Origin: Lachnospiraceae bacterium
GTDB lineage: Bacteria > Bacillota > Clostridia > Lachnospirales > Lachnospiraceae
Direction of reading: 5' to 3'
Assembly (NCBI GenBank): GCA_017482205.1
Contig: JAFUNK010000018.1
Location: forward strand, 1 to 64,000
DNA: 64,000 nt
In this document: piece by piece, positions 1-13,573 of the stretch
Numbering within the stretch: position 1 is the first letter of the stretch
Layout: every line of letters begins with the position of its first letter
The notes under the pieces: model-generated
Told to the model about the DNA's origin: nothing
The model's input: only the letters and a program-made list of their open reading frames with translations
Databases searched by the model: none
Made by a program: the position numbers and the translations under genes

Positions 1-1
1 A

Positions 2-223
2 ATCGATACCGGTATCTGGGGTTCCCTGAGGGATGATGTCATCGAAGCCATCAAGGAAAGAGAAGACTTAACTGTAAAAATTACGCTTACCCATGAAAAA
101 GAGCAGTATCTGCTGGTATTCGGACCGGACCGTGACATGTCTGTACTGGAAGAAGCAGACTGGTACGGTGTACTCTACTTAAACCAGTTCTTTGGAGTAG
201 AGCAGGAAGCAGACGCAGAATAA
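2..223 (+). CDS. C-terminal end of an unrecognised protein (5' truncated by window edge)
   Basis: An open frame enters from the left edge and stops at TAA 221-223, giving 73 visible residues that begin IDTGIWGSLRDD and end in an acidic tail (EQEADAE). I do not recognise the family. The segment looks like a compact alpha/beta tail with no membrane segment or cysteine motif. The frame is the natural owner of the strong terminator at 295-344, which supports its being a real gene read on the plus strand. No function can be given without the upstream part. Confidence 0.7.
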   Translation: MDTGIWGSLRDDVIEAIKEREDLTVKITLTHEKEQYLLVFGPDRDMSVLEEADWYGVLYLNQFFGVEQEADAE

Positions 224-294
224 TGTATAGAGTTTTTCTATACATAGTCAGCTTGCTATAAATTACACAGAGGTAACAGGGGATTGAGATAAAG

Positions 295-344
295 AAACAG
301 ACCCTTAGAACCGGTGGAGAGCCGGGGCTAAGGGTCTGTTTTTT
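295..344 (+). terminator. Rho-independent terminator, copy 1 of a duplicated element
   Basis: A 14-bp stem AAACAGACCCTTAG (295-308) pairs with CTAAGGGTCTGTTT (328-341) and runs into a T tract. An inner CCGG/CCGG pairing extends it. The same element, including the upstream attgagataaag, recurs at 2291-2352 behind abiEii, with a different but still complementary inner stem. Confidence 0.9.
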
Positions 345-353
345 ACAGAAGGA

Positions 354-472
354 ATTGCAGTTTCGGCAAAAATAAACAAAAGTGCCAAAAGTGCAATTGA
401 CATTTGGAAATAAACGCCTTATAATAAAATTGCAGTTTCGGCAAAAATAAACAAAAATGCCAAAAGTGCAAT
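354..472 (+). promoter_or_regulatory. Twin 44-bp inverted-repeat operators around the abiE promoter
   Basis: Two near-identical 44-bp units lie at 354-397 and 429-472 (offset 75 bp). Each is an imperfect inverted repeat: ATTGCAGTTTCGG at the left and CCAAAAGTGCAAT at the right, with a shared AT-rich core. Unit 1 ends at the first base of the -35 box; unit 2 starts just after the -10 box. AbiEi proteins are known to autorepress by binding two inverted repeats at their own promoter, so these are the likely AbiEi operators. The repeat structure is seen directly; the binding protein is inferred. Confidence 0.8.
397..425 (+). promoter_or_regulatory. Consensus sigma-A promoter of the abiE operon
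   Basis: TTGACA at 397-402 and TATAAT at 420-425 are separated by 17 bp, a perfect housekeeping promoter. It lies in the gap between the two operator copies, so occupancy of both repeats would block polymerase. The first codon of abiEi is 66 bp downstream of the -10 box. Confidence 0.88.
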
Positions 473-490
473 GAAGGAAGGTGTATAGCA

Positions 491-1240
491 ATGAAGATTG
501 AAGAAGTAATTGAAAAATTGAAGCCGGATTCTATCATAAGCAGAAAAGAATATGAGGATATTGTACGACAGATAAATCCAAAGTTAAGTGACAGAACTAT
601 TTTTTGGCAACTTGCAAAATTGCAGGATATGGGTATTTTGCAGAAAATAGGTCAGAACTCATTTCATGTAAGAAATAGCGAAAACTCAAAAAGAGAGTAT
701 TTCTATGGATATTCCAAGGAAATGCAAAAAATAGTAGATATGATAAAAGCAGAATATCCATTGGTGGATTTTCAAGTTTGGGAATTTGTACAGCTAAATG
801 AATTTGTTAATCATCAGATAGGAAAAAATGTTTTTTTTATTGAAGTAGAACATAATTTGGAGGAAAGTATTTTTAACAGATTGAGAGAGTATTGTTCCAG
901 AATATTGCTCTGTCCAAAGGAAGATATGTTTTATAATTATTTTGAAGAAAATATGGTGGTTATTCAAAGATTGCTGTCGGAAGCACCAAAGGCAAAATCA
1001 GATATAAAAGGATGCAGTCTGGAAAAACTGTTGGTGGATTTGTTCAGTAATAAGCTTACAGGACAATTAGTAGAAAGGGCGGAATATCCGGAAATTTATG
1101 AGGAAGCTTTTCGCAAGTATTATATAGATGAAAAGAAATTATTCCGTTATGCCAGACGAAGAAATTTGGAAAAGGAAATCAGAGACTTTATAAAGAAAGA
1201 AACAAATATACAGTTATTTACGGAGGAGGGGAATGCTTGA
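491..1240 (+). CDS. abiEi: AbiEi-like antitoxin / transcriptional autorepressor
   Basis: A 249-residue protein with an N-terminal winged-helix region (about residues 15-60, SDRTIFWQLAKLQDMGIL) followed by a larger alpha/beta domain, the layout of AbiEi antitoxins. In the AbiE abortive-infection family this protein represses its operon and counteracts the nucleotidyltransferase encoded next. Start ATG 491 follows the ribosome site GAAGGAAGG. The frame overlaps the next gene by 8 nt, typical of translational coupling. The gene is AT-rich and codon-poor compared with hisS and aspS, suggesting acquisition. Family assignment rests on architecture, the partner gene and the operators; I cannot run a profile search. 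Confidence 0.82.
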   Translation: MKIEEVIEKLKPDSIISRKEYEDIVRQINPKLSDRTIFWQLAKLQDMGILQKIGQNSFHVRNSENSKREYFYGYSKEMQKIVDMIKAEYPLVDFQVWEFVQLNEFVNHQIGKNVFFIEVEHNLEESIFNRLREYCSRILLCPKEDMFYNYFEENMVVIQRLLSEAPKAKSDIKGCSLEKLLVDLFSNKLTGQLVERAEYPEIYEEAFRKYYIDEKKLFRYARRRNLEKEIRDFIKKETNIQLFTEEGNA

Positions 1241-2273
1241 TAAGAGAAATTATGAATTAGAGTATATGAGAGAGTTACAGGAAAAATACAAAAAAGATCC
1301 TGCATTGTTGGAGAGGGTGTTATATGCGTTTGGATTGTTGGAGGCGTTGAAAATATCGGGATTGCCTTTTGTATTTAAAGGTGGTACATGTCTTATGTTG
1401 TTATTAGAGCATCCAATGAGATTGTCAACGGACATTGATATTATTGTTACACCGGGAACCGACGTGGATGAATATATCCGAAAGGCAGGAAATATATTTC
1501 CGTTTGTTACATGTGAAGAGCAAATCAGGGTAGGACATAATTCTATCGAAAAACGTCATTTCAAATTTGTTTATCAGTCACCTTTGCAGAAAAAAGAATT
1601 TTATATACTTTTGGATATTCTGTTTTCAGAAATTCCTTATGTAGAAACTATTGAAAAAGAAGTGAAGAATGAGCTTCTGATAGTTGATGGTACAAAAACA
1701 ATGGTTACGGTTCCAAGTGCAGAATGTATTCTTGGCGACAAACTGACTGCATTTGCACCACATACAACAGGTGTTCCGTTGGGTGTAGGTAAATCTATGG
1801 AAATTGCTAAACAGTTATTTGATGTTGCCACACTGATTGATGCCATGGGAAATCAGGATATAGTAAGGCAGACTTATGATAAAGTAGTGTTAGAAGAATT
1901 AGGTTATAGAGGTCTTTCAATAGGTAAAGAAGACGTGTTACAAGATACGATAAATGCCTGTCTGGGTATTATTAGTCGTGGTACAATGTATAAAGAAGAT
2001 TATGCAGAGTATTTGAAAGGTATTAAGGCTGTAGGGACACATATTTTGTTTTTGAACTATAGTGGCGAGATAGCAGCTCATCAGGCATGTAAAGTAATGT
2101 ATTTGGCTGCTTGCCTGTTAAAAGAAAGAGAATTTGTAAAAATCGAACATTCGGAAGTTTACATAGAACAAAAAATTGATCAGAAAAAATATAAGGGGTT
2201 ATCCAGTATCAAAAAGCAGAAGCTGGAAGCTTATGGATATCTGGTGGAAGCCGTCCGATTGTTAGACAAATGA
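1233..2273 (+). CDS. abiEii: AbiEii-like nucleotidyltransferase toxin
   Basis: This 346-residue protein carries the DNA-polymerase-beta-type nucleotidyltransferase signature: FKGGTCL (K49-G50-G51-T52) followed by RLSTDIDI (R63, S65, D67, D69), with the two aspartates expected to bind metal. Such AbiEii/MenT-like enzymes transfer nucleotides to RNA targets and arrest growth during phage infection; here the substrate is unknown. A second half rich in helices follows, with a GDKLTA segment near residue 168 that is also common in the family. ATG 1233 lies inside the 3' end of abiEi. The operon ends at the duplicated terminator 2303-2350. Confidence 0.88.
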   Translation: MLDKRNYELEYMRELQEKYKKDPALLERVLYAFGLLEALKISGLPFVFKGGTCLMLLLEHPMRLSTDIDIIVTPGTDVDEYIRKAGNIFPFVTCEEQIRVGHNSIEKRHFKFVYQSPLQKKEFYILLDILFSEIPYVETIEKEVKNELLIVDGTKTMVTVPSAECILGDKLTAFAPHTTGVPLGVGKSMEIAKQLFDVATLIDAMGNQDIVRQTYDKVVLEELGYRGLSIGKEDVLQDTINACLGIISRGTMYKEDYAEYLKGIKAVGTHILFLNYSGEIAAHQACKVMYLAACLLKEREFVKIEHSEVYIEQKIDQKKYKGLSSIKKQKLEAYGYLVEAVRLLDK

Positions 2274-2302
2274 TTTTTCACGGAAAAAATATTGAGATAA
2301 AG

Positions 2303-2350
2303 AAACAGACCCTTAGAATTGGTTTAAAGCCAAGTTCTAAGGGTCTGTTT
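2303..2350 (+). terminator. Rho-independent terminator, copy 2 of the duplicated element
   Basis: AAACAGACCCTTAG (2303-2316) pairs with CTAAGGGTCTGTTT (2337-2350), identical in both arms to the terminator at 295-344. The inner stem is TTGG/CCAA here and CCGG/CCGG in copy 1, so pairing is kept while sequence differs. It terminates abiEii and faces the convergent gene ending at 2372. Confidence 0.88.
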
Positions 2351-2371
2351 TAATGTAAAGTAAAAGGATTG

Positions 2372-4123
2372 TTAACGGTTTATACGATATCCAACAAATT
2401 TGCCTACCGTGGCACGAAGACAGAAGACCGCCTCGTCATTATCATGGTAAAGGGGTTCAATTACCTGATTGTTCTCTACATTCATGATACTTGCAGCACC
2501 TTTGATATGTATATGGATATCACTGTCGCGGGTATTGGCATCCACGTAGGGGTAAATCACAAAGGTATCATTATCGTATACAAATAAACTAATCATGGCA
2601 TCACCGGTCAGGTAAATACCGTTTGTACTAAATTCTTTACGCATGCGGTTACGGATAACATTGGGATAATATTTTAAATCGCTGAAGGATTCCGGTATCA
2701 CCAAAGTGTACATCTGACCGTCACCGTAGGTATCCAGTGCAAATATAGTGTAAGCCTCTTCTTCGGCAATACCTTTACACACAGCACCCCAGGTGGAGTT
2801 GTTGCGGAATTCCAATACCGGAATGGTTACCGGTTTTTCACCGTAAGCCCGTTCCCAACGGTTGTAGAAGCGGGAGGCTTCGGCAGCAAATTCTTTAACG
2901 GTTGCCTTACGGCCCCTGTCACGGATAGAAGTGAGTTTTGCCAGCCCCTTGTCCAAAGTGGCTTGTACAAAACCGCCGGTAACGATGGCTTTGTTGCCTG
3001 CTGCGATATATTGTTCCAATTTATTCACAATATCTGTATCATAAGCGGAAGCGGCGGTTAACAGCATAATCGGAGAATCCGCTTTGAAATGGGGCGTGGT
3101 AAGAATGGGGAAACCGTGCATACCCAGAAAATCCTGTACATTGTCTTCGCCCTGTGAAGCATTTGGAATATAACAGGGAATGCCCATGGGCGTACCCAGA
3201 TGACTCAGTAAAGCATCCAATTTATCCAGCATAAAGCCCAGTGCGGGCACATTTACGGAATTTACCAGTGCCTGAAAGCAGAACATCATCATTTCCCTGG
3301 GCTTGGCAAAGGCAGTCAGGTAAGCCTGCTCCAGATAGTAGTCTAACATGCGGCAGTCAAAGGGATCAAACCATCCGCCGCCGTTTCTGCCCGGTGCCAT
3401 ATCTTCCATGTATCCCATGAGAGAATAAGATAAATAGCGTGGCAGATGCTGGTCGGTATTCACCGGATCGCGGGTTTCCGTGCCGGTATAAATATAGTCA
3501 AAGATATCCTTTTGGGACGCCGGGTCATAACCTGTTTCCTGATAAGATTCCATCCAGTTAGGATATTTAATGGTAATTTTACAATCAGGGTTTACTGCCT
3601 TGGCAGGTCCGATAACGTACTTTTGTGAAGCTTCATACATCAGGTGGGTACGGTATGCCTGCCAGCTGCCATCTGAGATACCATGGGCTTTATTGTAGGC
3701 ATCATGTCCTTCGCGGCATGCTGCACAGGTACAATTGGTAAAATAAAAATCATCAATGATAAAGGCATCAAAAACCTTGGCATTTAATTCACATACCTGT
3801 TGCAAAGTGCTCATCATATCGGCATCATTGTAACAAAGGGTATTGAACATGCGCTGCTTTCTTTTATGTCCCTGCATATCGGGCATGGAAGTAGTGATGC
3901 CGCCTTCTGTGCGGATACCGTTGGCTTCAAAAACTTCTTTACACATGCGAAGCTGTTCTTCCGTAGCAAAAACTCCCTCCCGGAAAGGCTCCAGATAAAC
4001 CTTGTCGAGGCGCATATAATGCTTAAAAAAGTCAATATCCTTTTGCAGACCGTCCCTGGTGGCATTTGCCACGCCGTCAGCAACAAAGTACACCACCAAA
4101 TCAAAGTTTTTATAGTTTCCCAT
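2372..4123 (-). CDS. Unassigned 583-residue protein, possibly glycoside-hydrolase-like barrel
   Basis: No signal peptide is present, so the protein should be cytoplasmic. The N-terminal 300 residues look like a (beta/alpha)8 barrel: repeated strand-helix segments, a strand carrying paired acids followed by a cysteine cluster (IIDDFYFTNCTCAACREG, about residues 122-139), and a later KITIKYPNWMESY strand. Such paired-acid strands resemble GH42/GH29-like and related barrels. A middle segment (about 330-400: PIMLLTAASAYD, AIVTGGFV) resembles a trimerisation or Rossmann-type domain, and the C-terminus is beta-rich. The start at 4123 has a good AGGAGGTAAC site. It is a lone gene, with no transporter or sugar genes beside it. 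Enzyme class is a guess; no substrate can be named. Confidence 0.7.
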   Translation of the reverse strand: MGNYKNFDLVVYFVADGVANATRDGLQKDIDFFKHYMRLDKVYLEPFREGVFATEEQLRMCKEVFEANGIRTEGGITTSMPDMQGHKRKQRMFNTLCYNDADMMSTLQQVCELNAKVFDAFIIDDFYFTNCTCAACREGHDAYNKAHGISDGSWQAYRTHLMYEASQKYVIGPAKAVNPDCKITIKYPNWMESYQETGYDPASQKDIFDYIYTGTETRDPVNTDQHLPRYLSYSLMGYMEDMAPGRNGGGWFDPFDCRMLDYYLEQAYLTAFAKPREMMMFCFQALVNSVNVPALGFMLDKLDALLSHLGTPMGIPCYIPNASQGEDNVQDFLGMHGFPILTTPHFKADSPIMLLTAASAYDTDIVNKLEQYIAAGNKAIVTGGFVQATLDKGLAKLTSIRDRGRKATVKEFAAEASRFYNRWERAYGEKPVTIPVLEFRNNSTWGAVCKGIAEEEAYTIFALDTYGDGQMYTLVIPESFSDLKYYPNVIRNRMRKEFSTNGIYLTGDAMISLFVYDNDTFVIYPYVDANTRDSDIHIHIKGAASIMNVENNQVIEPLYHDNDEAVFCLRATVGKFVGYRINR

Positions 4124-4343
4124 AGTTACCTCCTTTGCGAAAATCTTCGTATTTCAGTATACTTCCAGTATAGGGCAGGAGTATTTTGTTCACAATGGAG
4201 TATCTTGTACGAAAGCAGGAGAAAACAAAACAGATTATTTCTTTAAGGGGCTGTGTATGTAATTGGCGGGTATGCCGGCTATCAGCTATCAAGGTTTGTC
4301 ACTTGACCGTTATCAGGCGAGACCGGCGGGTTTGATATGTATG

Positions 4344-4577
4344 TGGGCACTGAGGCAATTTTCTTTTGTTGTAGTGCCCATTTTTTTACAGTTTTGACGA
4401 AAAAAATAGCCATTTTGGGCATATAACAGAAAGAAATGGAATATAATGCCCACACTTTTATAAATTTATGGGCAGAAACAAGGAAAAAAGTGCTGTATAT
4501 GCCCATAATGGCAAAAAAATGCTTAATCTGCAGGAGATTTTGGGCACCAGAGACTTGATTTTTACTTAAAATGCCCA
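4344..4577. repeat. Array A: eight alternating TGGGCA/TGCCCA half-sites, helically phased
   Basis: TGGGCA occurs at 4344, 4416, 4469 and 4541; its reverse complement TGCCCA at 4375, 4447, 4500 and 4572. Start-to-start spacings are 31-41-31-22-31-41-31 bp. Each TGGGCA-N25-TGCCCA pair is a 37-nt potential hairpin in AT-rich sequence; the first extends to 8 bp (TGGGCACT/AGTGCCCA). Spacings are near 3, 4, 3, 2, 3, 4 and 3 helical turns. The same series recurs in array B, with 30 at its last step. Together with the tandem repeat that follows, this fills the 758-bp gap between the flanking genes. No protein-coding gene is supported here. Confidence 0.9.
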
Positions 4578-4830
4578 ATCCGCCCGGGAAACCCCAGCTA
4601 CTTGTGCAACCCAATCCCCCAATGCCCAGTCTGACTGAGGCGCTGAACCACACGGGAAACCATCACACCCCGGTAACCCAATCCGCCCGGAAACCCCAGC
4701 TGCTTGGGCAACCCAATCCCCAAATGCCCAGTCTGACTGAGGCGCTGAACCGCCCGGGAAACTATCACCCCCCGGCAGCCCAATCCGCCCGGGAAACCAT
4801 CACACCCAGACAGCCCAATCAATCTCGCCG
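4574..4830. repeat. GC-rich 102-103-bp tandem repeat
   Basis: Copies start at CCCAATCCGCCCGG at 4574, 4677 and 4779 (periods 103 and 102); the third is partial and a fourth fragment starts at 4814. Each full unit holds CTGACTGAGGCGCTGAACC and a TGCCCA motif (4623, 4725). The block is much richer in C and G than the surrounding sequence and abuts the last half-site of array A. Both strands are open in one frame, but the resulting Pro-rich peptides have no ribosome site, so I read it as non-coding repeat. Confidence 0.85.
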
Positions 4831-4881
4831 ACATCCCCTCAAAGTGTCCCCAAAACCAAATTAGTATTGTGAAGAGAAAAA

Positions 4882-5667
4882 CTAATTGTTTAAGAAGTAA
4901 TGTGAGATGATTTTTTCTATTAGTATTGTGTCTAACGGATGGTCTTTTGTCTCAAATGTAGTGATGAGCTGAATGGATGGGATGATACCGTGTGAAGAAT
5001 AAAACTGTAATTTTGAAAATGCATTTTGGGCATAAACAGGGTTATCCATTAATCCAAAGTGTTCCCAATAATAGAGTTTGCCGGATATAGGGTGACGTAT
5101 TGTAAAATCAGGATAGTAAGTTGTGTTGTTTAAGATTAAGGCAGCTTCATAGCGGAAAGGAATTTGGTTGATGTGCAGAAACATGTCGATAAGGGATTCA
5201 GACTTGGAACGCAAATTGTTTCCGGAAATGCTCTTGTGAATTAGTTGTTCGGGATAGTGGGGATTGCTTTCGTAGGGGGCGTGTGCCCAGTCAGACAATT
5301 CCTGTGAAAGTGGTTTGAAATGATCAGACAAAAGAGTCCGGTATTCCGAGGGATTGGTGAGTAGGGATTGTGCATTGCCAAAGGATGTAGGGTGTTGATT
5401 CAAGTATTGGTCTATGGCTGCTTTTTCAGCGACAAGTTCTTCGTACATCATAGAGAGGTATTTTTTTTCGGCAAGCTGTTCGGCAAGATGACGCTCGTGT
5501 TTGGGAATGTAATTCATATCCCCATCGTTACTTTGATACCACTTGAAGTGTGTTCCGTTGCGCGTACATATAAGCTTTCCTTCCGGCAGGTGCTCCAATT
5601 GTTTTTTTAGAGCATTGATTTGTTGAGTGAGTCTGTCAGACTCGGCTAATGCAATATGATATAACAT
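4882..5667 (-). CDS. PD-(D/E)XK-nuclease-like protein of a lachnospiraceal family
   Basis: The first 90 residues of this 261-residue protein are helical and charged, probably coiled coil (SDRLTQQINALKKQLE). The C-terminal half resembles a restriction-endonuclease-like fold: SKSE with E157, a strand YEAALIL, then YYPDFTI with D187 and YYWEHFG with E202-H203. This matches the E...D...E spacing of PD-(D/E)XK nucleases, although the usual lysine after the last acid is not in the standard place. From memory, similar proteins with the IPFRYE and YWEHFG blocks are common and multicopy in Lachnospiraceae, of unknown role. The start at 5667 has the site AAGGAGG. The gene stands alone between arrays A and B. 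Activity is inferred, not shown. Confidence 0.72.
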   Translation of the reverse strand: MLYHIALAESDRLTQQINALKKQLEHLPEGKLICTRNGTHFKWYQSNDGDMNYIPKHERHLAEQLAEKKYLSMMYEELVAEKAAIDQYLNQHPTSFGNAQSLLTNPSEYRTLLSDHFKPLSQELSDWAHAPYESNPHYPEQLIHKSISGNNLRSKSESLIDMFLHINQIPFRYEAALILNNTTYYPDFTIRHPISGKLYYWEHFGLMDNPVYAQNAFSKLQFYSSHGIIPSIQLITTFETKDHPLDTILIEKIISHYFLNN

Positions 5668-5740
5668 GAAATCCTCCTTTGTTAGTAGTGTATTATGATA
5701 ATAATACCGGATGAAAGAAAATGCAACTGCATTTGACGCA

Positions 5741-5820
5741 AATTGAATAAACTTTTACAAACTGAATAAATTTAGCACAAACTGATAAATTTGGCACAAA
5801 CCGAATGAATTATGGGTGCG
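5741..5820. repeat. Degenerate ~20-bp tandem repeat
   Basis: Four units of consensus actgaataaatttagcacaa start at 5741, 5761, 5781 and 5800 (periods 20, 20 and 19). They lie just upstream of the nuclease-like gene and lead into array B. The last unit merges into TGGGTG at 5813, which sits exactly 31 bp before a TGCCCT at 5844, a possible decayed half-site pair. Confidence 0.75.
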
Positions 5821-5867
5821 GACAAAAAGTTGGACACTGTCTGTGCCCTTCGCATAAACTATATTTA

Positions 5868-6100
5868 TGGGCATAGACAACGCATTTTTTTATGATGCTG
5901 CCCAAAATCAAGAGAATTTTACAGTTGTTTTGGCGGTTTTGGGCATAGAGCGCAAAAAAAGTGCAACCTATGCCCACATTTTGGTGATTTTGTGGGCATC
6001 AGACAGGTTAATTTACTCTGTGATGCCCAAAACGGCCTTTTTAAGCGGGATAAAATACAATTTTTGGGCATTGGAGCAGGAAAAAAGCCATTTATGCCCA
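5868..6100. repeat. Array B: same half-site architecture as array A
   Basis: TGGGCA at 5868, 5940, 5993 and 6065 alternates with TGCCCA at 5899, 5971, 6024 and 6095. Spacings are 31-41-31-22-31-41-30, the array A series with only the last step 1 bp shorter. Two pairs have extended perfect stems with different sequence: TGGGCATAG/CTATGCCCA (5940-5948/5968-5976) and TGGGCATCA/TGATGCCCA (5993-6001/6021-6029). A weaker pair may precede it (5813/5844). Spacer sequences are only loosely similar to array A, so the architecture seems to have outlived the sequence. Frames that are open here are incidental. Confidence 0.92.
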
Positions 6101-6215
6101 TTTTGAATAAAAGTGCTGTTTTCCATATGCACTGCCGTTGATTAAGGACAAGTCCGAACGATTCTTGTTTCCTGATATTATATATTTTCTCTAGTGTAAA
6201 CACAATATCCCAAAA

Positions 6216-6307
6216 AGAGAAACAAAACTTTACCGAGCAGAGAAACAAAACTTCACCAAGCAGAGAAACAAAACTTCACCAAGTAGAGAAACAAAACTTC
6301 ATAAAAG
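6216..6307. repeat. Four copies of a 23-bp direct repeat upstream of hisS
   Basis: Units agagaaacaaaacttcacc(a/g)ag(c/t) start at 6216, 6239, 6262 and 6285, with exact 23-bp period; the fourth diverges after acttca. There are no spacers, so this is not a CRISPR array. The core AACAAAAC recurs in the palindrome at 6365-6381, so the repeats may be iterated binding sites. Confidence 0.88.
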
Positions 6308-6364
6308 AATTTAAATAAAATGGATAACAGTGTATGCCGAGTGGCAGTATCAGAAGTTTAAGAA

Positions 6365-6381
6365 AACAAAACAGTTTTGTT
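6365..6381. promoter_or_regulatory. 17-bp perfect palindrome, putative operator upstream of hisS
   Basis: AACAAAAC-A-GTTTTGTT is a perfect inverted repeat around a single A. A second, imperfect copy (aacaaaacagttcttttc) follows from about 6389. Both carry the AACAAAAC core of the 23-bp repeats and lie about 40 bp upstream of the hisS -35 box. The binding protein is unknown. Confidence 0.6.
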
Positions 6382-6418
6382 CTACAACAACAAAACAGTT
6401 CTTTTCTGCAATACAGAC

Positions 6419-6447
6419 TTGAAATAAGGCGAAAATCAGTGTAAAAT
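6419..6447 (+). promoter_or_regulatory. Likely hisS promoter
   Basis: TTGAAA at 6419-6424 and TAAAAT at 6442-6447 are separated by 17 bp, 52 bp before the hisS start. No T-box leader fits in the remaining space. Confidence 0.6.
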
Positions 6448-6498
6448 CTTGTAAGTATAAAGAGTTTGACTGTACAAGTAAACAGAAAGAGGACAAGT

Positions 6499-7758
6499 AT
6501 GGCATTAAGTAAGAAACCGACTACCGGTATGAAAGATATTTTACCTGCAGAGATGAAAATCCGTGACTATGTCATTAGTGTAATTAAGGATACTTACGGC
6601 AAGTTCGGATTTACCTCCATAGAAACTCCCTGTGTGGAGAATATTGCAAATTTAAGCAATAAGCAGGGCGGCGAGAATGAAAAACTGATTTTCAAGATTT
6701 TGAAAAGAGGCGAAAAGTTAAATTTAGAAACAGCAGAAACAGAGAGCGATTTGGTGGATGGCGGACTGCGTTACGATTTGACCGTACCGCTGGTACGTTT
6801 CTATTCCAACAATGCGGCAAACTTACCCAGCCCTTTTAAGGCATTACAGATGGGTAATGTGTGGCGTGCGGACAGACCCCAGAGAGGCAGATACCGCCAG
6901 TTTATGCAGTGCGATATTGATATTTTAGGCGAAGCCTCCAATCTGGCAGAAATTGAACTGATTTTGGCAACCACTACCACAATCAGCCGTTTGGGATTTT
7001 CAAACTTCCAGATTCGTATCAATGACAGACGTATTTTAAAAGCAATGGCAGCATACGCAGGCTTTGCAGAAGAAAATTTTGACAGTGTATTTATTACCCT
7101 TGATAAAATGGATAAAATCGGTATTGAGGGCGTAAAGGAAGAACTGGTTGCAGACGGTTACGAAGAAGCAGTTTGTGACAAGTATCTGACTTTATTTACC
7201 GAAGTGGAAAAAGCAGAGAATGGTCCGTCTTACCTGGCGGAGACCTTAAAAGAATATTTGGATGAAGAAGTAATGGCTTCCTTTATGGAAATCATCGATA
7301 GTGTAAAGGCAACCAAGGCAGATACCTTCGAACTGGTATTTGACCCTACATTGGTACGTGGTATGAGTTATTACACCGGTACTATTTTTGAAATTGCCAT
7401 GCCTGAATTCGGCGGCAGCTGCGGCGGCGGTGGCCGTTATGACAAGATGGTAGGCAAGTTTACCGGTAATGATGTGCCGGCTTGCGGTTTCTCCATCGGA
7501 TTTGAAAGAATTGTTCTTCTTTTGATGGAAAAAGGATTTACCGTACCGGAAGAGCCTGAAAAAATGGCATTTCTTATCGAAAAGGGTGTATCCGGCGAAG
7601 CACTGTGCAATGTCATTGCAGAAGCACAGGCAGCCCGCAAGGAAGGTTGGCAGGTACTGGTAGCCCGCATGAACAAAAATAAAAAGTTCCAGAAGGAACA
7701 GCTTATGGCAGAGGGCTATAATGAGTTTAAGGAGTTTTACAAAAACCCGTTAAAGTAG
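6499..7758 (+). CDS. hisS: Histidyl-tRNA synthetase
   Basis: Class II aminoacyl-tRNA synthetase that charges tRNA-His in the cytoplasm. Motifs visible: the N-terminal TTGMKDILP segment, motif 2 in NVWRADRPQRGRYRQF, the histidine-binding region (LVRGMSYYTGTIFE) and the GGGGRYD loop, with a C-terminal anticodon-binding domain. I place the start at ATG 6499 (protein 419 residues) behind AGAGGACAAG; an in-frame upstream start at 6466 would add 11 residues without homology-like character. aspS follows after 109 nt with three hairpins between, so the two are probably co-transcribed, as is common for these synthetases in Firmicutes. I see no T-box upstream; control may instead involve the AACAAAAC sites. 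Confidence 0.96.
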   Translation: MALSKKPTTGMKDILPAEMKIRDYVISVIKDTYGKFGFTSIETPCVENIANLSNKQGGENEKLIFKILKRGEKLNLETAETESDLVDGGLRYDLTVPLVRFYSNNAANLPSPFKALQMGNVWRADRPQRGRYRQFMQCDIDILGEASNLAEIELILATTTTISRLGFSNFQIRINDRRILKAMAAYAGFAEENFDSVFITLDKMDKIGIEGVKEELVADGYEEAVCDKYLTLFTEVEKAENGPSYLAETLKEYLDEEVMASFMEIIDSVKATKADTFELVFDPTLVRGMSYYTGTIFEIAMPEFGGSCGGGGRYDKMVGKFTGNDVPACGFSIGFERIVLLLMEKGFTVPEEPEKMAFLIEKGVSGEALCNVIAEAQAARKEGWQVLVARMNKNKKFQKEQLMAEGYNEFKEFYKNPLK

Positions 7759-7770
7759 AAGGAGAAAAGT

Positions 7771-7851
7771 CTGAAAGAAATACAGTTCTTTCAGAACGGA
7801 ATTTGTGCTGACGCACAAAGTTCCTATAAATTTTAAAGCCGCTAAAGCGGC
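7771..7851 (+). other. Three consecutive hairpins between hisS and aspS
   Basis: CTGAAAGAA/TTCTTTCAG (7771-7794, 6-nt loop), GGAATTTGTGC/GCACAAAGTTCC (7798-7824, TGAC loop) and GCCGC/GCGGC (7838-7851, TAAA loop) follow each other closely. None has a strong T tract, so they look like mRNA processing or stability elements, or an attenuator, rather than an intrinsic terminator. Structure is seen; function is inferred. Confidence 0.7.
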
Positions 7852-7867
7852 AGAATGAGAGGAAATT

Positions 7868-9673
7868 ATGGCAGAATCAATGCAGGGATTAAAGCGTACC
7901 CACCGTTGCGGTGAACTTTCCGCAAAGAATATCGGCGAAACCGTTACCGTTATGGGCTGGGTGCAGAAGCAGAGAAATAAAGGTGGTATCATTTTCGTAG
8001 ATATGCGTGACCGCGCAGGAATTTTACAGGTTATTTTCCAGGAAAGTGACTGCGGCGCAGAGAGCTTTGCAAAGGCAGAAAAGCTGCGGAGCGAATTTGT
8101 AATTGCAGTAGTGGGCCGTGTAGAAAAGAGAGAAGCAGCGGCGAATGAAAATCTGGCAACCGGTGAAATTGAAGTACGTGCTAAACAGGTACGTATTCTT
8201 TCCGAAGCAGAGACCCCGCCTTTCCCTATTGAAGCAGAAAGCAAGACCAAAGAAGAATTACGTTTAAAATACCGTTATCTGGATTTGAGAAGACCTGAGT
8301 TACAGCGTAACTTAATGCTTCGCAGTAAGATTACAACAACCATCAGAAGCTTTATGGCAGAGGAAGGTTTCCTTGAAATTGAAACCCCCATGCTTACCAA
8401 ATCCACACCGGAAGGTGCAAGAGACTACTTGGTGCCCAGCCGTGTACATCCCGGCAATTTCTACGCACTGCCGCAGTCTCCCCAGATTTTTAAGCAGCTT
8501 TTGATGTGCTCCGGTTATGACAGATATTTCCAGATTGCAAGATGCTTTAGAGATGAAGACTTACGTGCAGACAGACAGCCCGAATTTACACAGGTTGACT
8601 TGGAAATGTCTTTTGTAGATGTGGATGATGTTATTGACGCAACCGAAAGAATGGTAGCAAGCGTATGTAAAGAAGCTATCGGTCATGAAGTAAGCTTACC
8701 TATTCAGAGAATGACCTGGAAAGAAGCCATGGACCGTTTCGGTTCCGACAAGCCGGATACCCGTTTCGGTATGGAACTGACTGATGTATCCGACGTAGTG
8801 GCAGGTTGTGGTTTCGGCGTATTTACAGGTGCACTGGAAAACGGTGGCTCCGTACGCGGTATCAATGTAAAAGGACAGGCAGAAATGCCCCGTAAAAAGA
8901 TTGATGCACTGGTAGAATTTGCAAAAGGCTATGGTGCAAAGGGATTGGCTTACCTTTCCGTACAGCCCGACGGTACCTACAAGTCTTCTTTCGCAAAATT
9001 TATGACAGAAGAAGAACTGGCTAAACTGGTTGAGGCTATGGGCGGTGAAAAGGGTGACTTACTTCTTTTTGCGGCTGATAAAAACAAAATTGTTTACAGT
9101 GTGCTGGGTGCACTTCGTATTGAAGTAGCAAAGCAGCTTGATATGATTGATAATTCAAAATTCAACTTCCTTTGGGTAACTGAATTCCCTCTTCTTGAGT
9201 GGGATGAGGATGAGAACCGCTTTGTGGCAATGCATCATCCGTTTACCATGCCTATGGAAGAAGATTTGCCTTTACTGGATACAGATCCCGGCAAGGTACG
9301 CGCAAAGGCTTACGACATCGTGTTAAACGGTGTGGAGCTTGGTGGCGGTAGTGTGAGAATCTTCCAGCCCGATGTACAGGAAAAAATGTTTGCGGCATTA
9401 GGTTTCACCAAGGAAAGTGCATATGATCGTTTCGGTTTCTTAATCAATGCATTTAAGTATGGTGTACCCCCTCACGCAGGTCTGGCAATCGGTTTGGACC
9501 GTTTTGTCATGTTACTGGTCAAGGCTGACAATATCAGAGAAGTAATTGCATTCCCCAAGGTAAAGGATGCATCCTGTCTGATGAGTGAAGCACCCAATGT
9601 AGTAGATGATGTACAGTTGACTGATTTACAGATAAAACTGGATTTGCAGGAAGCTGTTTCTGAGGCAGAATAG
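7868..9673 (+). CDS. aspS: Aspartyl-tRNA synthetase
   Basis: At 601 residues this is the long bacterial-type AspRS with an N-terminal OB-fold anticodon domain (about 10-115), a class II catalytic core interrupted by a GAD insertion (about 290-410), and the C-terminal motif 3. Visible motifs: motif 1 region FLEIETPMLTKSTPEGARDY, motif 2 RCFRDEDLRADRQPEFTQ and motif 3 GLAIGLDRFVMLL. It charges tRNA-Asp, and some clostridial forms also mischarge tRNA-Asn; whether gatCAB is present cannot be judged from this window. Start ATG 7868 has GAGAGG upstream. It is probably in one transcript with hisS. Confidence 0.97.
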   Translation: MAESMQGLKRTHRCGELSAKNIGETVTVMGWVQKQRNKGGIIFVDMRDRAGILQVIFQESDCGAESFAKAEKLRSEFVIAVVGRVEKREAAANENLATGEIEVRAKQVRILSEAETPPFPIEAESKTKEELRLKYRYLDLRRPELQRNLMLRSKITTTIRSFMAEEGFLEIETPMLTKSTPEGARDYLVPSRVHPGNFYALPQSPQIFKQLLMCSGYDRYFQIARCFRDEDLRADRQPEFTQVDLEMSFVDVDDVIDATERMVASVCKEAIGHEVSLPIQRMTWKEAMDRFGSDKPDTRFGMELTDVSDVVAGCGFGVFTGALENGGSVRGINVKGQAEMPRKKIDALVEFAKGYGAKGLAYLSVQPDGTYKSSFAKFMTEEELAKLVEAMGGEKGDLLLFAADKNKIVYSVLGALRIEVAKQLDMIDNSKFNFLWVTEFPLLEWDEDENRFVAMHHPFTMPMEEDLPLLDTDPGKVRAKAYDIVLNGVELGGGSVRIFQPDVQEKMFAALGFTKESAYDRFGFLINAFKYGVPPHAGLAIGLDRFVMLLVKADNIREVIAFPKVKDASCLMSEAPNVVDDVQLTDLQIKLDLQEAVSEAE

Positions 9674-9730
9674 TAACGATGCTAAGAAGAAGCATATAGA
9701 GAGTTAAGTTTCAGAAAGCGGAAGAAAGCC

Positions 9731-10441
9731 ATGCAAATTCTTTATTTGATGAATGTAACGCCTTTCTGTGAAGAAAGTGTGTTGCAGGCGGCTCTGCCAC
9801 TGGTAGAACAAAGGCGCAGAGAGCGTATTATGCAAAGTAAAGACAACAAAAACAGGGCACTAAGTCTGGCGGCTGGTGTCCTGCTTTCGTATGCCGTAAA
9901 CAGGTGGAAAATAGATTCTAAAAGGGCCCTGTCGTGTATGATACAGACGGAGGTATCACAGGTATTGGCAGACTTATCGGAAGCGGCAACAAAAAAAACA
10001 CTGTGCATACCGCAGACGATAATAGTTGCAAATGGCAAACCTTATTTAAAGGACTGTCCGGACATATACTTTAACTTGTCCCATTCGGGAGAGTATGCCG
10101 TGTGCGTAATTGCAGATTGTGAAATTGGTGTGGATATCCAGCAGTACCGGAAAAATATAAAAGAGGGGATTTTGAAAAAGGTATTGCATGAGAGCGAAAA
10201 AGCACTTTATGAAGCCTGTGGAGAAGAAAAGGAAGCGTTCTTTTATCATATATGGGCAGCAAAAGAGGCTTATGCTAAGTATACGGGAGAAGGACTGGCA
10301 GTTGATTTCAGATTGTTGTGCACGGATTTAACTAAAAGAGAGATAACAGATACCCGTACAGACCGAAAATATGAATTACAGATTTGGGAAGGAATACCCA
10401 ATTATACGATTACGGTAGTAAAAGCCGTTGAAATAATATAA
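9731..10441 (+). CDS. 4'-phosphopantetheinyl transferase, Sfp-like
   Basis: The 236-residue protein has the Sfp-type signatures: NLSHS (115-119), GVDI with metal ligand D135, and WAAKEAYAK (175-183) with E179. Sfp-type enzymes transfer the phosphopantetheine arm of CoA to carrier-protein domains of fatty-acid, polyketide or non-ribosomal peptide systems. No such system lies in the window, so the substrate may be a primary-metabolism acyl carrier protein or a system elsewhere. Length is usual for the broad-specificity class rather than the short AcpS. It follows aspS by 57 nt and may be read through from it. Confidence 0.93.
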   Translation: MQILYLMNVTPFCEESVLQAALPLVEQRRRERIMQSKDNKNRALSLAAGVLLSYAVNRWKIDSKRALSCMIQTEVSQVLADLSEAATKKTLCIPQTIIVANGKPYLKDCPDIYFNLSHSGEYAVCVIADCEIGVDIQQYRKNIKEGILKKVLHESEKALYEACGEEKEAFFYHIWAAKEAYAKYTGEGLAVDFRLLCTDLTKREITDTRTDRKYELQIWEGIPNYTITVVKAVEII

Positions 10442-10471
10442 AGAATTACTATTTATTAAGATAAAAAATTA

Positions 10472-10480
10472 TGATATAAT
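10472..10480 (+). promoter_or_regulatory. Extended -10 promoter upstream of the phosphatidyltransferase gene
   Basis: TGATATAAT at 10472-10480 combines a TGN extension with a perfect TATAAT. The -35 match (TTTATT near 10452) is weak, as tolerated by extended -10 promoters. It lies 58 bp before the next start codon. Confidence 0.65.
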
Positions 10481-10538
10481 AATTTGAATAAGCTGATTTT
10501 TATAGGACTAAAGTAAGGATTGGAAAGAAGAGAAACAA

Positions 10539-11060
10539 ATGGAGCTGATAGCAAAGAAAAATATTCCTAATTACATAACGGTACTGCGAATAGTAGGAAC
10601 AGTATGCCTGTTATTTTTGGAACCCTTGAGTCTGGAATTTTATATTATATATACCCTTTCCGGTTTCAGTGATGTGGTAGACGGATACATTGCCAGAAAG
10701 TGGAAACTGACCAGTGAGTTTGGTGCAAAATTAGATAGTATAGCGGATTTGTTGTTTTATGCAGTGATGGTTTTAAAAATCTTACCGCTTTTAATCAAAA
10801 AACTGCCTTTGGGAGTATGGATTGCCGTTGGAGTGGTATTGCTTATAAGGGCAGCAGCTTATATTGTAGCTGCTTTTAAATACAAGAGTTTTGCTTCTTT
10901 ACATACTTATATGAATAAAATGACCGGTGCCGGAGTGTTTTTACTGCCGTACATGATTCAGACTGTGGTATTTGTTCCATTTTGTATGGTACTCAGTGTT
11001 GTGGCAGCATCCGCAGCAGGACAGGAATTATTTATTCATATTCGTGGAAATGCCACTTGA
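10539..11060 (+). CDS. CDP-alcohol phosphatidyltransferase (PgsA-like)
   Basis: A 173-residue integral membrane enzyme with several hydrophobic helices and the full family signature: D45-x2-D48-G49-x2-A52-R53-x8-G62-x3-D66-x3-D70 (read as SDVVDGYIARKWKLTSEFG and AKLDSIAD). The family condenses CDP-diacylglycerol with an alcohol such as glycerol 3-phosphate, inositol or serine. Length and sequence style suit phosphatidylglycerophosphate synthase or a cardiolipin-synthase-type member, but the alcohol cannot be settled by eye. It has its own extended -10 promoter. The sensor kinase gene follows after 41 nt. Confidence 0.9.
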   Translation: MELIAKKNIPNYITVLRIVGTVCLLFLEPLSLEFYIIYTLSGFSDVVDGYIARKWKLTSEFGAKLDSIADLLFYAVMVLKILPLLIKKLPLGVWIAVGVVLLIRAAAYIVAAFKYKSFASLHTYMNKMTGAGVFLLPYMIQTVVFVPFCMVLSVVAASAAGQELFIHIRGNAT

Positions 11061-11101
11061 CGGATAAAAGCTGATTGTTGGGGAAAGGAGTGTGGGGAAA
11101 T

Positions 11102-13573
11102 ATGATAAGAATGGAAATGGCTTGTTTTTTTGTAGTTGCATTTATGGCAATTGTTTATTTTTCTGCGAAAAGAGAACGAACCAGATTGCATAAGATTTTT
11201 TCCACATTTCTGTTACTTTCCATGGTACATTTGCTGCTGGATGCAGCCACCATTTATACAGTGAACCGTCTGGAAGAAATACCGGGCTGGGTCAATGATA
11301 TTTTACACAGGTTGTTTATCGGTACTATGGTGATACTATTCTGCCTTGTTTACCGGTATATTATTTTATTAGTAAAAGAGGAAGTAAACCAAACTCAAAG
11401 ACTTTCAGGTTTTAGTTTTGGGATATTAGGCGTTACACTGATAGGTGCAATCTTTTTACCTATAGAGTATCAGGTGACGGAAGGGGGCAATTATGCTACC
11501 GGACCGGTTGCATATATGGCGTATGCTTCTATTGCAGTCTATCTTATCGGGGCTATTATTGTATTATCCATATACTGGAAACAGGTACATCCCAAAAAGA
11601 AGATTGCAATTACGACGGCGCTTGCAATTGAAATAGGTATTTCATTATATCAGGCAGTAAGTCCTTTAGCGTTGTTAAGCGGTATGGGTATTATGCTGAT
11701 TGCATTGTCTTTCTATCTGACGATGGAGAACCCTGATATTGTTCTGGTAGAACAGATACGGGAAGAAAAAAGAAAGGCGGAAGAAGCAAATGATGCAAAG
11801 TCCGTCTTTTTGTCGAATATGTCCCATGAAATCAGAACACCTATGAATGCGATTGTAGGTATGACGGAAATCATGTTGAGAACCGAACTTGATGTGAAGC
11901 AGAAGGAGTATCTGCATAGCATAAAAAGTTCGGGAAATGCATTAATCGCCATTGTCAATGATATTTTGGATATATCAAAGATTGAAGCCGGTAAGATGGA
12001 ATTGATAGATGCCACATATGACATATATGCAATTTTTAACGACCTGCAGAAGATTATTGAAAACCGTATCGGAGAAAAACCCATAGAATTACAATATGAT
12101 ATTGATAAAGAACTGCCCAGATATTTATACGGAGACGGGTTGCGTATTCGACAGGTAATCATTAACCTGTTAAGTAATGCAGTTAAGTTTACCGAAGAAG
12201 GATATGTAAAGCTGACAGTATATGTGGAAGACAGAACAGCAGATAAGTTAATAATGGCGATAGCGGTGGAAGATACCGGACAAGGTATCAAAGAAGAAGA
12301 TATGCCTAAGCTGTTTGATGCCTTTGAACAGGTTGATGTGATGAAAAACCGTGGAAAAGGCGGTACGGGATTGGGACTTTCCATTTCCAGTCAGTTGATT
12401 GTTATGATGGGCGGTAAATTGGAAGTTTGCAGCGTATATGGTGCGGGAAGCAAGTTTTTCTTTAGCATACCACAGGGAATTGTATCCGATGCAGAGGAAA
12501 AAATGGAAGAGGAACAGGAAGAAAATCTGCATTTTATAGCTCCCGAAGCAAAAATATTGATTGCGGATGATAATATTATTAACCGTAAGGTAGCCGTACA
12601 GCTGTTAGAGCCTTTGCAGATGCAGATATCTACCGCGGATAATGGTCAAAAAGCGTTAGAGATGATACAGCAGAATGAATATCATATGGTATTGATGGAC
12701 CATATGATGCCTGTTTTGGATGGTGTGGAAGCAACCAGACGTCTACGTGCTTTAGACGGCGAGTATTATCAAAAACTTCCCGTGATTGCGTTGACGGCAA
12801 ATGCAATGAAGGAAGCTGAAAAACAGTTTTATGAAGTGGGCATGAACGGATTTATTGCAAAACCCATTGATTTACAGCATATGTACAGGCTGATTTATAA
12901 ATGGTTGCCCGAAGAGTTGATTATCAGACAGCAATATAAAGAACCTGTAAAAGTTGCAACAGAAAAGGTTGCAATAGTGTTTGATTTTGAACCGGATGAT
13001 ATAGACATAGCAGAAGGAATTAAAAATACAGGAAGTCCAAAGTTTTTTGAAAGCCTGCTGGGTGATTTTTATCAGATAATTGATTCGAAATCACTTAAAA
13101 TTGAAAAGTGTCTGGCAGATGATATGATTAGAGATTATACAATAGAAGTACATGCATTAAAAAATACTGCCAGAATGATAGGGGCAATGCAGTTGTCACA
13201 AGAATTTCTGCGTTTGGAAGAATTAGGAAATGCAGAGGATAGGGAAGCACTTCTTAAAGAAACACCGGATGTATTGGATCATTATAGAAAGTACAAAGAA
13301 ATCCTGAAACCTTATGGTGATAGTAAGGAAAAAGATAAGAAAGAAGTGTCCAAACAGGAAATTATTTTGTATTTAAAGCGCATCCATGACAAGATAGAAG
13401 GATTTGACTTAGATGCTGCTGATGTTGCAATGGATAAGCTAGAGGAGTGCAAATTGCCGTCATCCTGCCAAAAACATATGGAAGAGTTACGGGTTTATAT
13501 GGCAGATGTTGCAATGGAAGAAATTTTGGATACAACGAAAAAACTGATAGATTTGGTACAGCAGGAATTGTAG
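11102..13573 (+). CDS. Membrane hybrid sensor histidine kinase with receiver and HPt domains
   Basis: About seven N-terminal hydrophobic segments (residues 1-215) form a membrane sensor without a large extracellular loop. A short coiled coil (EEKRKAEEANDAKS) leads to the HisKA domain with phospho-acceptor H242 in SNMSHEIRTPMNAI, then an HATPase domain (GGTGLGLSIS), a receiver with D533 in VLMDHMMP, and an HPt-like domain with H684 in EVHALKNTA. All four phosphorelay sites therefore seem present in one 823-residue chain. I choose ATG 11102 behind AAAGGAG over the upstream TTG at 11075. The output partner may be the receiver protein encoded 21 nt downstream. The signal is unknown. Confidence 0.93.
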   Translation: MIRMEMACFFVVAFMAIVYFSAKRERTRLHKIFSTFLLLSMVHLLLDAATIYTVNRLEEIPGWVNDILHRLFIGTMVILFCLVYRYIILLVKEEVNQTQRLSGFSFGILGVTLIGAIFLPIEYQVTEGGNYATGPVAYMAYASIAVYLIGAIIVLSIYWKQVHPKKKIAITTALAIEIGISLYQAVSPLALLSGMGIMLIALSFYLTMENPDIVLVEQIREEKRKAEEANDAKSVFLSNMSHEIRTPMNAIVGMTEIMLRTELDVKQKEYLHSIKSSGNALIAIVNDILDISKIEAGKMELIDATYDIYAIFNDLQKIIENRIGEKPIELQYDIDKELPRYLYGDGLRIRQVIINLLSNAVKFTEEGYVKLTVYVEDRTADKLIMAIAVEDTGQGIKEEDMPKLFDAFEQVDVMKNRGKGGTGLGLSISSQLIVMMGGKLEVCSVYGAGSKFFFSIPQGIVSDAEEKMEEEQEENLHFIAPEAKILIADDNIINRKVAVQLLEPLQMQISTADNGQKALEMIQQNEYHMVLMDHMMPVLDGVEATRRLRALDGEYYQKLPVIALTANAMKEAEKQFYEVGMNGFIAKPIDLQHMYRLIYKWLPEELIIRQQYKEPVKVATEKVAIVFDFEPDDIDIAEGIKNTGSPKFFESLLGDFYQIIDSKSLKIEKCLADDMIRDYTIEVHALKNTARMIGAMQLSQEFLRLEELGNAEDREALLKETPDVLDHYRKYKEILKPYGDSKEKDKKEVSKQEIILYLKRIHDKIEGFDLDAADVAMDKLEECKLPSSCQKHMEELRVYMADVAMEEILDTTKKLIDLVQQEL

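Follow-up and report, generated by a model that had tools for sequence, protein, structure and literature searches.

Phased arrays of inverted half-sites adjoin a nuclease-like gene that appears to recognise them in gut Lachnospiraceae

A nuclease-like gene that has not been described before is present in many gut Lachnospiraceae; its product appears to recognise the phased arrays adjoining it, and gene and arrays together look like a new kind of bacterial protein-repeat partnership. In the window, i.e. the whole stretch of DNA analysed (64,000 nucleotides of contig JAFUNK010000018.1 of a Lachnospiraceae bacterium), two arrays, A (4344–4577) and B (5868–6100), lie on either side of an ORF for a protein of 261 amino acids (4882–5667, minus strand). 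They are probably the binding arrays of that protein, and may form with its gene a dispersing unit that resembles RAYT/REP. A preliminary description of the arrays had dealt with their sites and spacing; the partner gene between them and the family-wide recognition code were no part of it.

Results

Both arrays are octads in which TGGGCA and TGCCCA alternate strictly, and all 16 hexamers and every gap are as described before. Array A has gaps of 31-41-31-22-31-41-31 and consists of four inward pairs (4344–4380, 4416–4452, 4469–4505 and 4541–4577); 304 bp separate it from the 3' end of the partner ORF. Array B, which is of the dispersed type, has gaps of 31-41-31-22-31-41-30 and inward pairs at 5868–5904, 5940–5976, 5993–6029 and 6065–6100, and is located 200 bp upstream of the start of the ORF. 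The pattern TGGGCA-N(20–40)-TGCCCA is present eight times in the window, every time inside A or B, while 100 dinucleotide shuffles of the window give a mean of 0.12 and a maximum of 2. Chance origin of the pairs is thereby rejected. An Rfam search of window positions 1–12000 gave no family match, the one sub-threshold match (2289–2356) being outside the arrays.

Other repeats are found close by. A 102-bp tandem repeat in 2.2 copies (4573–4798) abuts array A and contains extra half-sites off the octad spacing (4623 on the minus strand, 4705 on the plus, 4725 on the minus); it is uncertain whether it is part of the array system. A comparable feature is seen at the paralogue on contig C2 described below, where five direct TGGGTA sites 39–40 bp apart stand ahead of its hexad. 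Short tandem repeats flank array B at 5739–5811 (19 bp, 3.8 copies) and 6216–6301 (23 bp, 3.7 copies), that is upstream of the partner ORF and of a histidyl-tRNA-synthetase-like gene. Elsewhere in the window (491–2273, plus strand) an ORF with a DUF6577 match (E 5.6e-54) adjoins one matching an AbiEii-type nucleotidyltransferase toxin (E 2.6e-17), and the two are likely a type IV toxin-antitoxin pair.

Searching this genome and its relatives for convergent pairs, as had been suggested earlier, gave 73 occurrences of TGGGCA-N(20–40)-TGCCCA in the genome, where the control pattern, with the order reversed, occurs 2 times. There are 18 octads in the genome, with a centre gap of 22 in 17 of them and of 32 (+10 bp) in one. 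The octad centre is found without mismatch at 17 places. If up to three mismatches are allowed, each of these is a complete octad; a single mismatch in one half-site is seen in three of the 17. In the 18th (L063, G000:C24:79634–79890) all eight sites are intact and the gaps are 31-41-31-32-31-41-30; the extra helical turn at the centre makes this copy a natural experiment for phasing. The TGGGNA octad pattern turned up in none of the other genomes searched (1 of 299, and 1 of 101).

Sites and spacing had been supposed to be under selection, and the dispersed copies agree with this. Half-sites of the 16 copies other than A are 99.3% identical and their spacers 76%. Array A matches these copies at 99.6% in the half-sites and at 41% in the spacers (36 ± 4% with shuffled spacers), so that the spacers of A and B are indeed only loosely alike; all 48 half-site bases of A are intact, although its spacers hardly align to the dispersed family. 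Free drift of the spacing was looked for and was not seen, as spacer length in the 17 octads is always within 1 bp of the commonest value. Sequence shared between copies amounts in most of them to the octad and a few flanking bases and is longer in some; the copy on contig C1 (L064) has only the octad and 1–3 bases in common with most others. A second family in the same genome uses TGGGTA. Its eight copies examined have six sites each, spaced 29-22-29-41-29 within 2 bp, with 48 of 48 half-sites intact and a spacer identity of 55% (37% when shuffled). In a second genome, G398, five distinct octads follow one code (30-52-29-23-29-52-30, ± 1–2 bp) with spacers at most 59% identical over a baseline of 33 ± 5%. 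In array A and in the octads of G398 the spacers have diverged almost to saturation, yet sites and gaps are preserved; inert descent of recent copies alone is therefore rejected.

Copy number of the arrays differs greatly between genomes. G206 has 66 convergent pairs, among which at least eight groups contain two or more pairs, and two of these groups flank the ORF; G398 has 25 convergent pairs; in G213 the only array, with eight pairs, adjoins the ORF and there is no dispersal. Dispersal together with sequence similarity points to copying of arrays. Neither an empty site nor a target duplication nor a product of excision was seen, and the case for mobility therefore rests on copy number and similarity. 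In the region upstream of hisS in 29 relatives a single 41-bp match is all that recalls the cassette; since some loci end early and the junction is variable, this region does not qualify as a clean empty site.

The surroundings of the dispersed octads bear on the possibility that the arrays are operators. Among 15 octads classed with a crude ORF caller (two further ones are unclassed), seven lie between tandem, five between convergent and three between divergent genes. The protein could be mainly a transcription regulator of itself and of a regulon, its nuclease-like domain having another or no catalytic role; this would suit arrays that adjoin the gene and occupy other intergenic regions, and phased inverted sites are suited to cooperative repressors. 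We regard such a role as unlikely, because no promoter is expected at the five convergent positions, the putative catalytic residues do not vary (see below) and the number of arrays is so different from genome to genome.

The partner protein can be divided into two parts. The sequence pattern suggests an N-terminal coil and a DNA-binding domain of three strands and one helix (putative beta-beta-beta-alpha, residues 28–75, 5443–5586, minus strand), in which the covariation described below is located. The C-terminal nuclease-like domain (residues 141–261, 4885–5247, minus strand) contains the motifs RSKSE (Glu157), PD (Asp187) and WEH (Glu202), invariant in 72 aligned rows. The residue after WEH is Phe or Leu and not Lys, and from these motifs the C-terminal half would be a PD-(D/E)XK nuclease whose usual lysine is not at the usual place. 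The PADLOC PD-DEXK profile matches the domain weakly in the window ORF (E 0.017) and clearly (E 1.4e-7) in L051, a third homologue in this genome (contig C8, 30% identity) with no detectable array nearby; the TPD family of Pfam matches 8 of the 72 members (best E 0.048). Pfam finds no family in the window ORF itself, and the Y1 family is absent among 25 of the 64 Pfam families matched by the 72 members. NCBIfam and PHROGs searches of the ORF gave nothing informative, and the best match in a PDB sequence search was an unrelated enzyme (E 0.14). Origin as a phage gene was considered and judged improbable, the eight viral_contigs matches all being limited to the nuclease part (residues 107–260); of three matches among phage records one, in a 4.2-kb faecal record, extends over 88% with 25% identity, and a phage link is weak.

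In PADLOC, the C-terminal half matches end portions of the PDC-S68 proteins (E 1.7e-29). Plasmid relatives of the nuclease domain are annotated in eight of nine records as AAA ATPases (6), RecQ (1) or RecD-like (1). A role in defence or self-marking, in which arrays restrain the nuclease or label the host chromosome as self while incoming DNA is cleaved, draws on this domain being common to the candidate defence proteins PDC-S68 and PDC-S69 and to the plasmid ATPases and helicases. A shared domain by itself says little on role, however, and the arrays are dispersed rather than single, so we hold a defensive function to be quite improbable.

At E ≤ 0.001, 103 of 299 genomes in the family have relatives of the ORF, as do 51 of 138 in the genus; matches of the nuclease part alone in larger proteins are counted in both figures. 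In this genome, a paralogue on contig C2 is 58% identical and lies directly beside a TGGGTA array. An alternating array is present within 1.3 kb of the ORF at 46 of 79 named loci, nearly all from Lachnospiraceae or genera of that family (0 of 60 shuffles as good), while a control region 4.6–5.9 kb from the ORF has a significant array in 2 of 75. At the other 33 of the 79 loci a significant array was not detected by the method used, which counts exact 6-mers, compares them with 60 shuffles and sets a minimum score, so that degenerate arrays escape it. A further set of 71 identifiers was reduced to 45 loci by removing 12 near-duplicates and 14 in which the motif filter left no ORF; 32 of the 45 passed, about seven of them at the weakest scores. 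The distant-region control relates to the 79 named loci.

Half-sites vary by locus and include TGGGCA, TGGGTA, TGGGCG, CGGGGTA, AGGGTA, TTTGGACA and others. Some more distant relatives (about 30% identity) have long arrays of quite different sites, for instance with 21 sites at L211, 16 at L230 and 13 each at L221 and L228. At L079 (G026, 2438 onward) at least 19 direct units (TGGAAT...ATTTGC) stand ahead of a normal alternating array. The ORF has in-frame stops in 6 of the 79 copies (L125, L127, L132, L153, L157 and L189); L125 and L127 keep a significant core-type array beside such an ORF, and arrays can thus outlast the gene.

For analysis of the spacing, the 46 significant loci were narrowed to 44 with at least four sites, 41 with a recognisable core and, after removal of two duplicates, 39; distances were measured with half-sites aligned on the GG core. 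Adjacent inward distances are 32–34 bp in 115 of 125 cases. Outward distances fall within 1 bp of 19, 29, 39, 49 or 60 bp for 53 of 58 distinct values, where 30% would be expected from a uniform distribution. The best outward period is 10.1 bp (R 0.82), and none of 5000 uniform null sets reached as high a value, the largest being 0.42. Same-orientation distances, a looser test that does not depend on the choice of alignment, give 10.25 bp (R 0.735). The sites are thus spaced as if on one face of the helix, as had been proposed from A and B alone. AT content of the inward spacers peaks at the dyad (0.80–0.90), dips at 6–7 bp and rises at 10 bp, a pattern that would be expected for bent DNA.

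This ladder is also relevant to folding of the arrays as RNA or single-stranded hairpins. Convergent half-sites are complementary and could pair, and REP elements work by folding according to two papers (PMC2817692, PMC8266576); the spacing would then be incidental. The consensus fold of 16 octads has a covariation term of 0, with two-sided change in 3 of 49 predicted pairs, and hairpins leave the 10-bp steps of the outward distances unexplained. RNA structure as the basis of the arrays is rejected on the lack of covariation, and hairpin formation in the manner of REP/BIME is disfavoured as very improbable. What we prefer, a helix-phased complex on double-stranded DNA, is highly likely.

Helix-phased sites, bendable dyads and dispersed copies would also fit a domesticated DNA-wrapping protein that folds or partitions the chromosome. 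Such an architectural role is improbable in our estimate, if a little less so than defence, because relatives occur patchily (the genome counts above), the site sequence differs from species to species and G213 has one array only.

Half-site sequence follows the protein. Among 37 proteins, the strongest associations between protein and site are those of residue 35 with half-site position 6 (z 13.3) and of residue 40 with position 2 (z 12.4); in the window ORF these are Thr35 (codon 5563–5565, minus strand; C at position 6) and His40 (codon 5548–5550, minus strand; T at position 2). Proteins alike in residues 39–47 have similar half-sites even when likeness over the remainder of the protein is allowed for (0 of 500 permutations); the nuclease domain has only weak predictive value in this respect (50 of 500). 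A table of residues and bases was drawn up for 52 proteins, with residue classes set after seeing the data, with 16 added half-sites entered by hand and L091 aligned manually, and leaving out distant loci (L092, L094–L098 and others). In this table Arg40 is accompanied by G at position 2 in 19 of 19 cases and Tyr, His, Asn or Phe40 by T in 25 of 26. Ala35 goes with T at position 6 (20 of 20) and Thr or Val35 with C (17 of 18); Ser35 fits poorly (C in 8 of 11). The same rule is visible inside this genome, where the Thr35/His40 ORF lies beside TGGGCA arrays and the Ala35/His40 paralogue on C2 beside TGGGTA arrays.

In independent pairs, picked on a tree from which the DNA-binding domain was left out, residue 40 is concordant in 24 of 24 scoreable pairs and residue 35 in 22 of 26; the L184/L091 pair, one of the 22, carries little weight because of the manual alignment of L091. 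The same tree requires a minimum of 17 changes at position 2, almost as many as with shuffled labels, and shared ancestry therefore does not explain the match of protein and site. At loci outside the derivation set with at least 40% identity the code gives position 2 correctly in 13 of 13 scoreable cases and position 6 in 12 of 14, both misses being Ser35; for four of the held-out loci (L074, L075, L079 and L087) some half-site words had been seen before the code was derived. The code cannot be scored at L089 and L288, where position 2 is not fixed, at L289 and L291, which have Cys40 and no rule, or at L205, where there is only a weak four-site chain and the GG core is absent. L091 agrees by hand alignment. 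At less than 40% identity results are mixed: L097 follows the rule, L092 breaks it at position 2 and L098 does not fit. From these sequence comparisons we conclude that cognate binding of the protein to its half-sites is very probable.

Discussion

Our results can be put together as follows. A dimer of the protein would read two convergent half-sites about three turns apart on double-stranded DNA, which corresponds to the fixed inward distance of 32–34 bp, and the AT-rich dyad would let the DNA bend between them. Further dimers would stack on the same helix face, as outward distances come only in one-turn steps, and the resulting wrapped nucleoprotein complex may position the nuclease. Gene and arrays would most likely be a coevolving and dispersing unit with a RAYT-like role, in which the nuclease could help to copy or maintain the arrays, probably via cut-and-repair. 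That mobilisation or maintenance of arrays is the main role we put forward with some hesitation, at slightly under even chances. Still more tentative is the full picture, in which residues 35 and 40 set two half-site bases in a readable code, nuclease dimers are brought together along the ladder in a wrapped array reminiscent of a nucleosome, and gene and arrays spread together as a unit, either selfish or domesticated, which would be a nuclease-based equivalent of RAYT/REP with an independent origin.

If this is true, systems of a gene and its cognate repeat have arisen at least twice in bacteria, with different enzymes and different forms of DNA. It would also mean that a recognition code has been derived from sequence that is testable by exchange of single residues, that there is a natural library of phased arrays for the study of DNA wrapping by protein complexes, and that a class of dispersed repeats in gut Lachnospiraceae is explained. 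No published description of a gene and array system of this kind was found in open-licence full texts, which include few subscription papers.

The preliminary description had seen no match with REP/BIME, CRISPR, ParB or DnaA arrays, and this view held in the comparisons made here. CRISPR arrays have direct, near-identical repeats of about 23–50 bp and unique spacers, whereas sites of six to eight bases, strict alternation and three spacer lengths are found here. ParR/parC, ParB/parS and similar phased centromere arrays resemble those studied here in having sites on one helical face and a likely wrapped complex; the differences are that the partner here is nuclease-like, the arrays are dispersed and the half-sites diversify with the protein. 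Tn7-type ends have arrays of several inverted binding sites for TnsB, and TnsA is a PD-(D/E)XK nuclease. A PD-(D/E)XK-like motif and several inverted sites are seen here too, but the neighbourhood of the ORF yielded neither a transposase nor any other gene for transposition, a single protein of 261 residues combines the DNA-binding and nuclease parts, and the dispersed unit is the array itself. The PADLOC candidates PDC-S68, PDC-S69 and HEAT_CxxC_PDDEXK have a related C-terminal nuclease domain; the match starts only at about residue 133 and the N-terminal half is not shared, and PDC-S68 profiles are about 1200 residues long compared with 261 in the partner protein.

REP/BIME with RAYT (TnpA-REP) and REPINs are the closest in organisation. 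REPs lie on both sides of RAYT genes, which coevolve with these repeats and may mobilise them (PMC2817692), and the RAYT enzyme is a HuH protein that acts on single-stranded REP (PMC8266576). As is described for REP, the gene studied here has its own repeats next to it (A on one side and B on the other in the window; at least one side at 46 of the 79 loci), protein and repeat coevolve, and dispersed intergenic copies alternate in orientation. The enzyme differs, a PD-(D/E)XK-like motif taking the place of a Y1/HUH transposase of IS200/IS605 type. A folded single-strand palindrome is suggested neither by the octad fold nor by the 10-bp ladder; instead of REP hairpins there would be 8-bp half-sites in duplex, at inward distances of 32–34 bp and outward steps of one turn, and in the genomes counted the sites number tens and not hundreds per genome. 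The array and its gene would work like a RAYT/REP system and are not a member of it, because enzyme class and DNA form are different. If a gene with its cognate dispersed repeat counts as one kind, the system is a variant of the RAYT/REP kind.
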